A stretch of DNA of 39,039 nt from NCBI GenBank assembly GCA_949288485.1, contig CASEKC010000010.1:1-39039 (forward strand), written 5' to 3'. Below are positions 20,891-35,178 of this stretch, in pieces (positions within the stretch are counted from its first letter, which is position 1; every line of letters starts with the position of its first letter). The translations under genes were made by a program, and so were the position numbers. The notes beneath the pieces are model-generated. The model was not told the DNA's origin and made no database searches. It saw only the letters and a list, made by a program, of their open reading frames with translations. This DNA comes from an uncultured bacterium (GTDB lineage Bacteria > Bacillota_I > Bacilli_A > RFN20 > CAG-826).

Positions 20891-21796
20891 TTATTTTTTG
20901 AAATATTGATTATATTTATCATCTAAGTCTTTAAAATATTTTTTAAAAAATCCATAAAATCCTTTTTGGTGATTTTTTAAAAAATTACCTTTAATATTAT
21001 CATCATTAATTATTTTGTTATAATCATATTCACCATTAACTTTCCAATTTTCTAACATTCCAATACTTATTGCATTTTTTGGACAGAAAAATGAACATCT
21101 CATACACATAATACATTTGTTTTGAAATTTGTATTTGTCATTTATTTTAACAATATTATTTGTAGGGCAATTATTCATACATTTATTACATTTAACGCAT
21201 TTATTGTAGTCAATTTTATAAAAATTGGAATTAATTGGACCACCTAATCTTTGAATTTTAAAAATTAATGAATTTAAATAAATAAATGGATTAGATTTAA
21301 TTTTTGAAGTTATATTATTTTTTAAATCATAAATAAAAATATCTAATAATTTTAAACTTGCCTCATATAATTCTTTAACAAGTTCGCCACTATAACGAAA
21401 ATGAATATTATATGGAAATAAAAAATGATATTCTCCGTTTAATGTAATCTTATTTTTTCTTAATTTTCTTTTAATATATCGTGATGAGGAATTATTTAAT
21501 GCTAAAGGTTCTCCGCTTTGTTTTAAAATATAGTATTTTTTGTTTTTAAAAAGTTTTATTTTTTTTAAATATTTATCAAAAATAATTGGAGTATTAAAAG
21601 CATAAACTGGATAAGAAAAAATAATTAAATCATAAATAGTTAGATCAATAATTTCTTTATTTGACTCTATTGAATAAATTTCAGCTTCATATAAAGATTC
21701 TTTTTCTAATCTATCTTTTATTAAGGATGCTAAAAATAATGTGTTTCCTGTTCCGCTAAAACATATAATTACTGCTTTTTTTAAATCATTTTTCAT
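20891..21796 (-). CDS. EFR1-type flavodoxin-ferredoxin fusion
   Basis: The 301-residue cytoplasmic redox protein has an N-terminal flavodoxin-like half, with FMN phosphate loop FSGTGNT (13-19) and LIIFSYPVYAFNTP. Its C-terminal half is a ferredoxin with two 4Fe-4S motifs, CVKCNKCMNNCP and CIMCMRCSFFCP. This is the EFR1 architecture of Firmicutes, whose exact reaction is unknown. Its ATG overlaps the stop of the upstream SDR gene (ATGA), so the pair is translationally coupled and probably works together as an electron-transfer unit; that is inferred from context. Confidence 0.87.
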   Translation of the reverse strand: MKNDLKKAVIICFSGTGNTLFLASLIKDRLEKESLYEAEIYSIESNKEIIDLTIYDLIIFSYPVYAFNTPIIFDKYLKKIKLFKNKKYYILKQSGEPLALNNSSSRYIKRKLRKNKITLNGEYHFLFPYNIHFRYSGELVKELYEASLKLLDIFIYDLKNNITSKIKSNPFIYLNSLIFKIQRLGGPINSNFYKIDYNKCVKCNKCMNNCPTNNIVKINDKYKFQNKCIMCMRCSFFCPKNAISIGMLENWKVNGEYDYNKIINDDNIKGNFLKNHQKGFYGFFKKYFKDLDDKYNQYFKK

Positions 21797-22707
21797 AAAT
21801 CATTTAATTCGTTACTTATCTTATAAATTTTACCAATAAAATTCTTATTAAATAAATCTTTTTTTAGTTTATATATTTTAGGGTATCCCCAAAAATTTAA
21901 TAGTCCTCGTGGTCCAATCCATAAATTATTATTTAGTTCTTTAACTTCAGCGCCAAGCAATAATGATAAACAAGCTTTTGAAGGTTTCATGAATATTATG
22001 TTCATTAATTTTGGGATGAAATAATAAAACCATTTACCATAAGCATTATTCTTTTTGTCAAAAAGATTTGTTGTACTAACTCCTGGATGAACGAATATTA
22101 TATTTTTTTGCTCATAAATTTTTAAAAATAGTAAATATTCCATCAATAATCTTTTACTGAAACCATAACGAACGGTTTTATTTTTTATTTTCCTTAAATA
22201 ATTTTCAAAAGATTCTTTATCATTCAAAAAATGATCATTTTTAATTCTTTTTAAAGAATATGTAACGCTGCTCACATCAATAACTTTTATCGAAGGAAAA
22301 ATATTAAAAAGAGAAGAAATGAAATATGAAGGTGCTAAATAATTGACTATAAAAGTTTTTTCTACATTATCAATATATTCTTCTTTTTGATGATAAATAC
22401 CACTTATATTTAAAAATATATCGATATGTTCATATTCCTTTAATCTGTCTAAACATTCTTTAAGACTATTTTTATTTAAATAATCAAAAAATAAAATTTT
22501 TATTTTAACACCATATTTTTCTTTTAATTCATTTTTTATAATCTCAGCTTCATTTAAATTTCTTACTAAAAAAATTAACTCGTTTTTCAAGGCTGCTAAA
22601 TAAAAAACTGTAGCTTTTCCTATACCGCCAGTAACACCGTTAATTAAGATAATTTTGTTCGACAAATTAACAATATTTTTATCTATCCAGTTTTGGTAAG
22701 TTCTCAT
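21793..22707 (-). CDS. Short-chain dehydrogenase/reductase (SDR)
   Basis: The 304-residue protein has the SDR cofactor motif NGVTGGIGKA (about 24-33), the NISG element, the catalytic Ser in DVSSVTYS and the YGFSK active-site Tyr-Lys pair. FVHPGVSTTNLF after the active site is also typical. It resembles retinol-dehydrogenase-like and WW-oxidoreductase-like SDRs that act on lipophilic substrates, but the substrate cannot be read from sequence. It forms an operon with the EFR1 protein. No Shine-Dalgarno is visible; a -10 TATTAT ends 11 nt before the ATG. Confidence 0.85.
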   Translation of the reverse strand: MRTYQNWIDKNIVNLSNKIILINGVTGGIGKATVFYLAALKNELIFLVRNLNEAEIIKNELKEKYGVKIKILFFDYLNKNSLKECLDRLKEYEHIDIFLNISGIYHQKEEYIDNVEKTFIVNYLAPSYFISSLFNIFPSIKVIDVSSVTYSLKRIKNDHFLNDKESFENYLRKIKNKTVRYGFSKRLLMEYLLFLKIYEQKNIIFVHPGVSTTNLFDKKNNAYGKWFYYFIPKLMNIIFMKPSKACLSLLLGAEVKELNNNLWIGPRGLLNFWGYPKIYKLKKDLFNKNFIGKIYKISNELNDL

Positions 22708-22761
22708 ACATCATTAAGATAATATTAATTTTTAATAAAAAGTGAATAATCTAAAAAATTG

Positions 22762-22806
22762 GAGCATTCTTGTACTACGTACGGGGTTGGGTTGAACCAT
22801 TTATAT
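22762..22806 (+). repeat. Copy 1 of a structured intergenic element
   Basis: Shares the exact block GAGCATTCTTGTA with a second copy at 33971-34014, followed in both by a GGGTT-x-GGG-AxCC-TTTATA pattern. It can fold into hairpin I (CTTGTAC/GTACGGG, 3-nt loop) and hairpin II (GGTT/AACC, 6-nt loop). It lies between the SDR gene and tRNA-Ser and carries no ORF. The function is unknown. Confidence 0.55.
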
Positions 22807-22838
22807 AAGAATCCCATTCTTATATTAAATATAAGAAT
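22803..22838. repeat. Three-arm inverted repeat with mutually exclusive hairpins
   Basis: ATATAAGAAT (22803-22812), CCC, ATTCTTATAT (22816-22825), TAA, ATATAAGAAT (22829-22838). The middle arm is a perfect complement of both outer arms, so only one of two 10-bp hairpins can form at a time. In DNA it gives two overlapping operator-like palindromes. It directly follows copy 1 of the intergenic element. Confidence 0.6.
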
Positions 22839-22895
22839 AAATTATATATAACTTTATTATGTATCTTTTAATCAGTTTTTATCAACTAATTTTTT

Positions 22896-22922
22896 CAACA
22901 AAAAAATGCGACTTTCATCGCA
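22896..22922 (-). terminator. Terminator of tRNA-Ser(GCT)
   Basis: Minus-strand hairpin TGCGA/TCGCA with a 6-nt loop followed by TTTTTTT, about 17 bp past the encoded CCA end of the tRNA. Confidence 0.8.
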
Positions 22923-22938
22923 CGTTTTTTAATAAAAA

Positions 22939-23028
22939 TGGCGGAGTAAGAGAGGATCGAACTCTCGCACCGGTTGCCCGATCTACTTCCTTAGCAGGGA
23001 AGCCCCTTCACCACTTGGGTATTACTCC
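22939..23028 (-). tRNA. tRNA-Ser (anticodon GCT)
   Basis: On the minus strand a 90-nt class II tRNA starts GGAGTAA and ends TTACTCC-G-CCA, with CCA encoded. The anticodon stem CTTCC/GGAAG holds the loop CTGCTAA, so the anticodon is GCT, reading AGC/AGU. The long variable arm folds (ATCGG-GCAA-CCGGT) and the T arm is GAGAG-TTCGATC-CTCTC. A -10 TATAAT (23050-23055) lies 21 nt upstream. Confidence 0.97.
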
Positions 23029-32941: not shown

Positions 32942-32970
32942 TTGTTTATAAGTCGAGATAATGGTATCTT
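32942..32970 (+). promoter_or_regulatory. Probable promoter of the thioredoxin-like gene
   Basis: -35 TTGTTT (32942-32947), a 17-nt spacer and a -10 TATCTT (32965-32970). This leaves a leader of about 40 nt with a GAGG Shine-Dalgarno before the ATG at 33017. Confidence 0.45.
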
Positions 32971-33016
32971 ATTATTTGCGTTTAAATTAAACTATATATA
33001 TTTGAGGATTAAAGAA

Positions 33017-33892
33017 ATGAATATTTTAAAGAAAATTGGTACTCCATTTATTGCAATATGGAGATGGATAAAAGAAACCGCTTGGGTTCAACCACTTCTT
33101 ATTGTCGGTATTATATTTGCAATTATTTTCTCAATCCCTTCAATTACTAAGGGAATTCAAGGATTAATGAATCAACAAGAAAGCGATATCGTTTATTTCC
33201 AACAACATCAACTTTCTTTAAAAGGTTCTAAAAGAGGTGAAGAAAATAGTCAGGCTAATATCTTCTTCGATAACTTCGTTGAAGCTCAAGGTTTATGGGA
33301 AAATGGCGATAAGGAAGGAGCAAGAGATTTATTATCTTCTTATTCCAATAATGGTGATAAATTCTTCCTCTTCTTCGTTCAAGAAGAATGTGCAGGATGT
33401 ACTTCATTAAAAGAAGGTGCAGAATATTTAGAAGACAACTGGTCAACATATGTCACTGATAGTAAAGAAGCTTCATTCCACTTCCAATCTATTATTGTAG
33501 ATCAAGAAATTGATGATCAATATTATGAAGACGAAAACAAACATCCAATCGATGATTTAGTAACTTATCAATCTTATCTTGAATTCTACCGTATCGTAAT
33601 GGGTAATATTCAAAATCAAAGATATTATATCAATGTTGGTATTAGAGATGGGTCAAGTGGACAAAATACTATTTATTCAAATACTGAAGCATTAATTAAT
33701 ACAACTGACTTACAAACTCCAACAATTATGTTGCTTGATTTAACTGATGCTAACACTTCATCTTATATTGTTAGCGAAGTCTTCTATACAAGCGATGCAA
33801 CATTTAGCGCAGCTAGTGATGTTTATGGAAAAGCATCATTTATAGCAGATGCTTGGACTTATGATGGTATTTTCGGTAACGATTACCATTAA
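33017..33892 (+). CDS. Membrane-anchored thioredoxin-like protein with CAGC motif
   Basis: The 291-residue protein has one N-terminal membrane segment (about 24-42). The rest is probably outside the membrane. A beta strand FFLFFV is followed by ECAGC (C125, C128) and a helix, as in thioredoxin-fold active sites; TPTIMLLDL (about 235-245) looks like the cis-proline loop. The spacing is long for thioredoxin (an insertion of about 80 residues between them), so the fold is inferred. A thiol-disulfide or thiol-binding role at the cell surface is plausible. The start at 33017 was chosen because TGAGGATTAAAGAA gives a Shine-Dalgarno there; the 25-residue upstream extension has none and crosses the promoter. 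No family name was recognised. Confidence 0.7.
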   Translation: MNILKKIGTPFIAIWRWIKETAWVQPLLIVGIIFAIIFSIPSITKGIQGLMNQQESDIVYFQQHQLSLKGSKRGEENSQANIFFDNFVEAQGLWENGDKEGARDLLSSYSNNGDKFFLFFVQEECAGCTSLKEGAEYLEDNWSTYVTDSKEASFHFQSIIVDQEIDDQYYEDENKHPIDDLVTYQSYLEFYRIVMGNIQNQRYYINVGIRDGSSGQNTIYSNTEALINTTDLQTPTIMLLDLTDANTSSYIVSEVFYTSDATFSAASDVYGKASFIADAWTYDGIFGNDYH

Positions 33893-33913: not shown

Positions 33914-33942
33914 AAAGGGGGACTAAGTTCCTCTTTTCTTTT
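33914..33942. terminator. Terminator after the thioredoxin-like gene, also usable from the right
   Basis: Ten-bp stem AAAGGGGGAC/GTTCCTCTTT with two G-U pairs and a 3-nt loop, followed by TCTTTT on the plus strand. On the minus strand ATTTTTTAATTTTT follows, so it could also end coaD-side transcripts that contain the repeat element at 33971-34014. Confidence 0.65.
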
Positions 33943-33970
33943 ATATAAAAATACATATATATAATATAAA

Positions 33971-34014
33971 GGGTATAAAAGGCTTCCCGAACCCTTGTAA
34001 CTACAAGAATGCTC
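33971..34014 (-). repeat. Copy 2 of a structured intergenic element
   Basis: Minus-strand copy of the element at 22762-22806: the identical GAGCATTCTTGTA is followed by hairpin I (CTTGT/ACAAG, 4-nt loop) and hairpin II (GGTT/AGCC with one U-G pair), then TTTTATA. It lies in the 152-bp region between coaD and the terminator at 33914, so it could be part of the coaD 3' UTR. No convincing independent promoter was found. Confidence 0.55.
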
Positions 34015-34094
34015 TTAGTTCTCAAAATATTGCAGATTTAGTTTTAAAAGTTAAAAGATTCCTTTAATTTTATAAACATTTGTCACCAATTAAT

Positions 34095-34589
34095 TTACTT
34101 ATTTTTGTTCATGCTTATTAAATACTCATTAACTTTTGAAGGAACCAATTTTGAAACATCGACACCCATTGAAGCTAGTTCGATAATATTTGAAGAAGAA
34201 ATAAATGTATTTTCTTTTTTAGCCATTAGAAAAACCATTTCTATCTCATGATCTATAAATTCATTTGATGCAGCTAAACTCCACTCATAATCAAAATCAG
34301 AAACAACTCTCAAACCTCTGATTAAAAATTTAGCATTATTCATTTTCGCAAAATTAATAGTTAATCCATCATAAGAATCACATCTAACGTTATTCATATC
34401 TTTAATTGCATCATTAATCATTTCAACTCTTTCTTTTACGCTAAAACGGTTATTAGTTTTAGAAGAATTATATGCAACTAAAACAATTACTTCATCAAAT
34501 AATTTTGAAGCTCTTTTAATAATATCTAAATGACCATTAGTAATTGGATCAAAACTTCCTGGATATACTCCAATTTTCTTTTCCTTCAT
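34095..34589 (-). CDS. coaD: Phosphopantetheine adenylyltransferase
   Basis: Catalyses the penultimate step of coenzyme A synthesis. The 164-residue protein has the nucleotidyltransferase motif YPGSFDPITNGHLDII near the N-terminus, LIRGLRVVSDFDYE in the middle and the C-terminal FISSSNIIELASMG, which corresponds to the usual ISSS motif. The start at MKEKKIGVYP was chosen because AAAGGAG lies 9 nt upstream, inside the end of rsmD; the longer frame to 34610 would lose this. It begins one base after the rsmD stop codon. Order ylbF-rsmD-coaD matches Bacillus. Confidence 0.95.
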   Translation of the reverse strand: MKEKKIGVYPGSFDPITNGHLDIIKRASKLFDEVIVLVAYNSSKTNNRFSVKERVEMINDAIKDMNNVRCDSYDGLTINFAKMNNAKFLIRGLRVVSDFDYEWSLAASNEFIDHEIEMVFLMAKKENTFISSSNIIELASMGVDVSKLVPSKVNEYLISMNKNK

Positions 34590-34590
34590 C

Positions 34591-35178
34591 TTACTTTCTC
34601 CTTTCTTCACTTTTTAAAGTTAATAAGAATAATAAACTACGACCATATTTATATTTTTTAATATTATAATTTTCATTTAAAGAGGAATTTAATTCACTAT
34701 CTTTTTCAATAAAAATTAAACTATTTTCATTAACTAAATGATTAGATAAAAGTAATGATAAAATATTCATTTCATCATTATATAAATAAGGCGGATCTAA
34801 AAAAATTATATCAAATAATGTTTCTTTAAATTTATTTATAAAATCTATATCGGTTAAATTGGTAATTGTAAGTTTATTAAAATCATCTAAATTATCATTA
34901 ATTTTTGATTTTAAAGTAATATCACGATTTTCTAAAATAACTTTATAAGCTTTTAAAGAAGAATCATTAATTACGACTTTTTTAGCTCCTTTTGATAAAG
35001 CTTCAAGTCCAATTTGACCACTTCCACCATAAAGATCTAAAAATGATGAATTAATAATTCTTGTTCCGATAATATTAAAAAGTCCTAATTTAACAATATC
35101 TTTACTAGGACGAGTAATTAAAGGATCAACTTCTTTTAATCTTTTATTTTTATATTTGCCGCTTCTTATAATTAACAT
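34591..35178 (-). CDS. rsmD: 16S rRNA (guanine966-N2)-methyltransferase RsmD
   Basis: Methylates G966 of 16S rRNA. The 195-residue Rossmann-fold enzyme has the N-terminal RNA-binding segment RSGKYKNKRL...TRPSKDIVKLGLFN, SAM-binding LDLYGGSGQIGLEALSKGA, and the catalytic FLDPPYLY motif. It starts 4 nt after ylbF and runs into coaD, forming a three-gene operon. No Shine-Dalgarno is visible, so translational coupling is likely. Confidence 0.93.
   Translation of the reverse strand: MLIIRSGKYKNKRLKEVDPLITRPSKDIVKLGLFNIIGTRIINSSFLDLYGGSGQIGLEALSKGAKKVVINDSSLKAYKVILENRDITLKSKINDNLDDFNKLTITNLTDIDFINKFKETLFDIIFLDPPYLYNDEMNILSLLLSNHLVNENSLIFIEKDSELNSSLNENYNIKKYKYGRSLLFLLTLKSEERRK

Follow-up and report, generated by a model that had tools for sequence, protein, structure and literature searches.

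Probable small RNA genes of one dispersed family share a promoter with competence genes in an uncultured Bacilli bacterium

Several similar short RNAs encoded at dispersed intergenic positions, tied to competence and likely additive in effect, have been described in a Gram-positive bacterium as csRNA1-5 of Streptococcus pneumoniae, and the family reported here resembles them in these respects (PMC4507080). For sibling RNAs such as the csRNAs, base-pairing is the default action (PMC4507080). In streptococci with ComX/SigX, a dedicated box stands before genes of the comE, comF, dprA, recA and ssb type, as it does here, and the isolated non-coding RNAs srf-01 and srf-29 adjoin pneumococcal ComX sites, srf-01 being doubted by the authors (PMC6560143). 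Control of competence genes in Bacilli by a secondary sigma factor is likewise found with SigH of Staphylococcus aureus and Lactobacillus sakei (PMC3486894, PMC3364868). Forespore sigma-G/F promoters and the CsfG-type sporulation RNAs were also considered, the layout TGMATA-N15/16-CATTCTT resembling a sigma-G promoter.

The window, i.e. the whole stretch of 39,039 nt that was analysed, belongs to a genome of 1.36 Mb in 15 contigs (G000), in which copies were located by motif and model searches. A first-pass annotation had pointed to two intergenic sites in opposite orientation with an identical core, and the shared 13-mer GAGCATTCTTGTA was indeed found exactly at 22762-22774 (+) and 34014-34002 (−); when the window was shuffled with its dinucleotides preserved, 1 of 100 shuffles gave two matches to the 12-mer AGCATTCTTGTA at one mismatch or fewer. 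The contexts were as described: copy 1 lies between an SDR gene (21793-22707, −) and a tRNA-Ser gene (22939-23028, −), and copy 2 has coaD upstream (34095-34610, −; TIGR01510 match of 187 bits against a cut-off of 103) and runs into a terminator at 33914-33936. A 316-aa protein without NCBIfam match is encoded convergently with copy 2 (32942-33892, +). For copy 1, the proposed range of 22762-22806 gave the right site and too small an extent, the unit running from about 22725 to 22930 and its best-supported hairpin (22803-22825) lying mostly beyond that range. The features of both copies were as follows.

22725-22741, + strand: copy 1, A/T tracts on the 5′ side of the −35 box, which we liken to UP elements (column counts over 61 copies)
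22742-22748, + strand: copy 1, upstream promoter box GTGAATA, proposed −35 (TGNATA spacing in the scored copies)
22762-22774, + strand: copy 1, conserved promoter box GAGCATTCTTGTA, proposed −10 region (exact match; about 25 copies in the genome)
22769-22785, + strand: copy 1, inverted repeat CTTGTAC-TAC-GTACGGG, hairpin I (covariation; overlaps the promoter and the predicted RNA 5′ end)
22777-22844, + strand: copy 1, class I small RNA unit, model R1 (cmsearch E 8.4e-15)
22783-22798, + strand: copy 1, G-rich motif GGGGTTGGGTTGAACC, GGG then GG..CC (kept in class I and class II copies)
22803-22825, + strand: copy 1, hairpin ATATAAGAAT-CCC-ATTCTTATAT (two-sided changes in 8 of 9 model pairs, 30 copies)
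22907-22930, + strand: copy 1, terminator-like hairpin and T run (common to tRNA-Ser on the opposite strand)
34028-34034, − strand: copy 2, upstream promoter box TGCAATA, proposed −35 variant (aligned box spacing)
34002-34014, − strand: copy 2, conserved promoter box GAGCATTCTTGTA (exact match)
33992-34009, − strand: copy 2, inverted repeat TTCTTGT-AGTT-ACAAGGG, hairpin I (inverted-repeat comparison)
33939-34000, − strand: copy 2, class II small RNA unit, model R2 (cmsearch E 9.5e-10; copy 2 is itself in the training alignment)
33969-33996, − strand: copy 2, outer stem of AAGGGT (33996-33991) with ACCCTT (33974-33969) around GGGAAGCC (changes in the relative G003)
33914-33936, no strand assigned: copy 2, terminator hairpin common to the convergent gene 32942-33892 (flagged on the + strand)

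Across the whole genome, the 13-mer GAGCATTCTTGTA at up to two mismatches had 57 matches where its reversed control had 15; for GCNTTCTTGTA the exact matches numbered 23, and those of the control 2. The box GCATTCTTGTA was found 15-16 nt 3′ of TG(A/C)ATA in about 25 copies in G000; TGNATA lay 15-16 nt upstream of GCNTTC in 19 of the 25 scored copies, with near variants in the remainder, these copies having been selected by the box. Column counts over 61 copies, biased within the box because the copies were picked by it, gave T at −40, A from −39 to −35, T at −32/−31 and A from −29 to −23. The upstream element TG(A/C)ATA was unused for picking in the alignments that show the spacing and was loosely required in the search that fed the 61-copy counts. 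Two boxes at fixed spacing with A/T tracts are a promoter layout, and the 13-mer, one instance of the box that recurs about 25 times, was read as promoter DNA. The first-pass proposal of a repeat family or a small structured RNA is borne out in part, as to a structured family, but the strongest shared sequence is a promoter box and not RNA structure. At one gene of the box-bearing set, encoding an ABC transporter ATPase, the start codon follows the box after 7-8 nt without a Shine–Dalgarno (SD) sequence in four genomes (L016, L093, L112, L102), and its mRNA is likely near-leaderless there.

About 14 copies of the box in G000 precede genes, with an SD and a start codon within about 20-60 nt. 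They stand before recA, dprA (TIGR00732 match over the cut-off), comEA (domains SLBB and HHH_3) followed by a comEC-like gene (assigned from gene order and a sub-threshold Pfam match, 21.1 bits against 23), a comFA-like helicase gene followed by a comFC-like gene, and rpsF-ssb-rpsR, as well as before a pilus-type operon that includes a T2SSE ATPase, genes for an ABC transporter and a C39-peptidase protein, a methylase-like gene beside an uncharacterised one, and genes for small uncharacterised proteins. The late competence set of Gram-positive bacteria comprises DprA, ComEA, ComFA/FC, SSB and RecA. One promoter is thus common to DNA uptake and recombination genes, and the box-bearing genes, judged by their assignments, form a competence regulon.

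Some further genes under the box were recorded separately. A 60-aa peptide gene (L283 in G000:C1, promoter L001; also L085 and L100) encodes a product resembling class IIb bacteriocins (lactobin A/cerein 7B) at 17.1 bits, the cut-off being 21.5; the C39-peptidase protein (L021) is under the same competence box, and a competence-coupled bacteriocin is possible. The methylase-like gene (L284, G000:C3:128700-132500) has a weak Eco57I match, the gene after it could be its restriction partner, and the pair recalls DpnA of the pneumococcal competence regulon.

Another 13-15 copies of the box in G000, both window sites included, precede a structured non-coding unit of about 50 nt and no gene. The plan of this unit is GGG, GG..CC and CCC, followed by an AT-rich tail; class I, to which copy 1 belongs, shows an AT-stem hairpin whose loop contains CCC, and class II, to which copy 2 belongs, has a stem closed by GGG/CCC. 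The two sites had been said to fold into the same two hairpins. Minimum-energy folding gave otherwise, and they fall into two related classes. A classical terminator directly after the hairpin was seen in few copies only, and two outliers in G000 (L014, L017), matched by neither RNA model, carry a different insert, GTCTTGTAGACGTCGACGT, between the box and the GGG unit.

The class I covariance model, built without the promoter, found 9, 9, 10, 5 and 1 copies in G000, G003, G014, G005 and G022, respectively, and was without a match in the remaining 21 genus genomes; the class II model found 5, 6, 5, 1 and 1 in the same five. One of the nine class I matches in G000 is copy 2, so that the total there is 13 modelled units plus the two outliers. 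Neighbours are kept between species at 13 groups of loci, with some positions common to up to four species. Of the two window loci, that of copy 1, next to the SDR gene, is shared by G000, G003, G014 and G005, whereas G000 and G003 share that of copy 2. The family had not been recognised at first reading, and Rfam agrees: at the gathering threshold the window gave two tRNAs only, and ten RNA loci searched at E ≤ 1 gave only tRNAs and one chance match elsewhere. An origin from a plasmid, phage or virus was rejected, phages, plasmids and viral contigs giving no match, and the literature that was searched gave distant parallels only. The two sites are members of a dispersed, intergenic and structured family with further copies in its own genome and in relatives; the family is new to description and would comprise some 13-15 small RNA genes in G000.

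Conservation at the RNA level was assessed from paired changes. In 30 copies of the class I hairpin, 98% of cells pair and two-sided changes occur in 8 of 9 pairs (29 cells; 0 of 500 shuffles), in an alignment that was fitted to the model; a model-free search recovered 8-13 stem pairs flanking CCC in 28 of the 30 copies, a result that no more than 2 of 300 shuffles reached. The class I stem of G005 differs in sequence, with its pairing restored, and at the orthologous copy 1 locus of that genome the stem is altered on both sides. For class II, no covariation was found within the training alignment, the evidence being a change at the orthologous locus only: in the outer stem at the copy 2 locus of G003, one G-C is A-U and one A-U is G-U. 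Two-sided compensations, which the first two copies had lacked, thus appear once more copies are compared, as in a structured RNA family; the lack of further copies and of covariation, named in advance as grounds for abandoning the idea, was looked for, and both copies and covariation were found.

Hairpin I is a genuine inverted repeat in copies 1 and 2, as first proposed. Its variants include CTTGTAC-TAC-GTACGGG changed to CTTGTTC-TAT-GAACGGG, CTTGTTT-TTC-AAACGGG and CTTGTAT-GTT-ATACGGG, and it covaries at two pairs (7 cells; 0 of 500 shuffles, and further 0 of 1000 shuffles and 9 of 2000 swapped halves). Because it overlaps the proposed −10 and the start, it may be either an RNA 5′ hairpin or a DNA palindrome. 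The RNA of copy 1 is predicted to start within about 22772-22779; a start no later than about 22772 would place hairpin I within the RNA. The UUCUU of the box can also pair with the SDs of gene-type copies, which may make part of hairpin I incidental. A pseudoknot between GGG and the loop CCC is compatible by pairing, the loop being apparently too short for both helices at once.

Candidate readers of the promoter were sought among the sigma factors of G000, which are RpoD and a second factor, sigma2, in tandem (45% identical), and two small ECF-type sigmas. Sigma2 (P0001) is encoded directly after rpoD and is full-length and RpoD-like, with Pfam regions 1.2, 2, 3 and 4 all present, as in group 1/2 sigma-70 factors, and with scores below the RpoD equivalog cut-offs. 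Close orthologs (58-100% identity) occur in exactly the five of 26 genus genomes that have the RNA family and form a clade with 100/100 support. This co-occurrence (5/5 against 0/21) has a chance of 1 in 65,780 if genomes are independent, which they are not, and since the link is between related genomes, a single gain in their clade accounts for the statistics. The −35-reading helix of sigma2 (SRERVRQIE) is close to that of RpoD, and regions 1.2 and 2.4 differ; such a pattern would fit a −35 of the TGA type that was retained, about 17 nt from CATTCT, and a −10 that has changed. In G010 and G016 a divergent sigma occupies the place of sigma2 and a CGTTCTTGTA box precedes recA. Independent second RpoD-like sigmas were also seen beside rpoD in two other species of the genus, which are without the box (L348 and L351, in G018 and G019).

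The reading that we favour, with a probability of roughly 0.7, is that of sibling small RNA genes under a competence promoter, with sigma2 as the most likely reader and base-pairing as the mode of action. Each site would be a gene of one family with its own promoter, made up of A/T tracts, TG(A/C)ATA, 15-16 nt and GCATTCTTGTA, and a short non-coding RNA would begin just 3′ of the box, carrying the G-rich segment (GGG...GG..CC) and either the class I CCC-loop hairpin or the class II GGG/CCC stem. Because competence genes use the same promoter, the RNAs would be made together with the DNA-uptake and recombination machinery, and this co-regulation, as deduced from the common promoter, is the solid part of the functional reading. 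The RNAs most probably act as additive ‘sibling’ regulators, their exposed GGG/CCC pairing with other RNAs, the presumed targets, during competence.

Pairing with the 3′ end of 16S rRNA, for which we assumed the usual Bacilli tail, was scored relative to shuffled tails and reached z of about −4 in the GGTGATCC copies only, one in each of five genomes; the class I mean was −1.7, the same as for com mRNAs, that of class II −0.1, and the window copies gave −0.3 and +0.45. As a general action it finds no support in class II or in the window copies. GGTGATCC is a perfect 8-nt complement of the 16S rRNA 3′ end and occurs in one RNA copy per species (L250, L252, L253, L234, L239).

Other readings were weighed against these data. 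The box could be a DNA or RNA control element used by housekeeping RpoD with an uncharacterised activator or repressor, the RNA family being real and controlled by another factor. This fits G002 and G023 (L299, L300), where recA has a related box, AACATTCTTGATTATAAAGGAG, and a search for a second RpoD-like sigma found none, and the palindrome CTTGT..ACAAG that surrounds the start might serve as an operator; the two boxes, however, have a fixed spacing of the promoter type, the TATAAT box is replaced and not supplemented, and the co-occurrence with sigma2 is tight, and we consider the proposal rather doubtful. A second alternative, which we regard as unlikely, takes GTGAATA as the −10 box, as in the pneumococcal ComX site ...MCGAATA..., and GCATTCTTGTA as a transcribed 5′ leader that forms hairpin I and can mask SDs. 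The covariation of hairpin I, which includes bases inside the box, and the likeness to the published ComX consensus (PMC6560143) speak for it, but the ABC transporter gene that starts so close to the box in four genomes fits a near-leaderless start, and the A/T tracts directly precede GTGAATA, where a −35 box would have them.

Reading of the box by one of the small ECF-type sigmas (C2:137067 or C2:187887) appears very improbable. Small sigmas are common in the genus and run competence in streptococci and staphylococci, but most genomes that have them are without the box, and G022 (96% complete), with RpoD and sigma2 as its only sigmas, yet has the regulon, six exact boxes and one RNA copy, which counts against them. 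A mobile or selfish repeat of MITE or BOX type without RNA function is likewise very improbable: near-identical paralogs with unrelated flanks in one genome (L238, L241) would suit it, as would the homogenisation of sequence within species, but positions are kept between species at the 13 groups of loci where a mobile element should vary, compensatory changes occur at orthologous loci, no terminal repeats or target duplications were noticed, and a promoter box common to single-copy core competence genes, as the strongest shared sequence, points to the copies being separate transcription units of one regulon.

Beyond the favoured reading of sibling RNAs under a competence promoter, it is an evenly balanced question whether the tandem rpoD duplicate became a dedicated competence sigma with a regulon that includes a sibling RNA family rewiring RNA metabolism or translation. 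If so, a duplicated housekeeping sigma and a large small RNA family would act when cells become competent; the competence sigmas so far known to us in Bacilli all belong to the small secondary kind, and few small RNAs of competence have been described. That a genome of 1.36 Mb devotes 13-15 genes to one RNA family under a competence promoter suggests that RNA has a major part in DNA uptake. From sequence alone, the box offers a direct readout of the competence regulon in uncultured Bacilli, and RpoD and sigma2 lend themselves as a pair to the study of how a sigma factor shifts its −10 preference.

Compared with the known systems, a sigma-G sporulation promoter (TGAATA-N16-CATT) was the first idea and was rejected, since G000 has no sporulation sigma above the cut-off and no SASP gene, in contrast to sigma-G/F systems; CsfG gave no match. 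SigH is short, whereas sigma2 has regions 1.2, 2, 3 and 4 and adjoins rpoD in tandem. ComX is a small sigma reading MCGAATA (PMC6560143), whereas here the candidate is an RpoD paralog of full length, GCATTCTTGTA serves as the box, and this box is carried by a whole RNA family. The csRNA1-5 are driven by CiaR and repress comC (PMC4507080), whereas the 13-15 copies here stand under the promoter of late competence genes, which is unlike the CiaR promoter in sequence; no sequence similarity to csRNA1-5 was found (no Rfam match). Small RNA siblings in a competence regulon are known, and what would set this case apart is the unusual sigma factor and the copy number.
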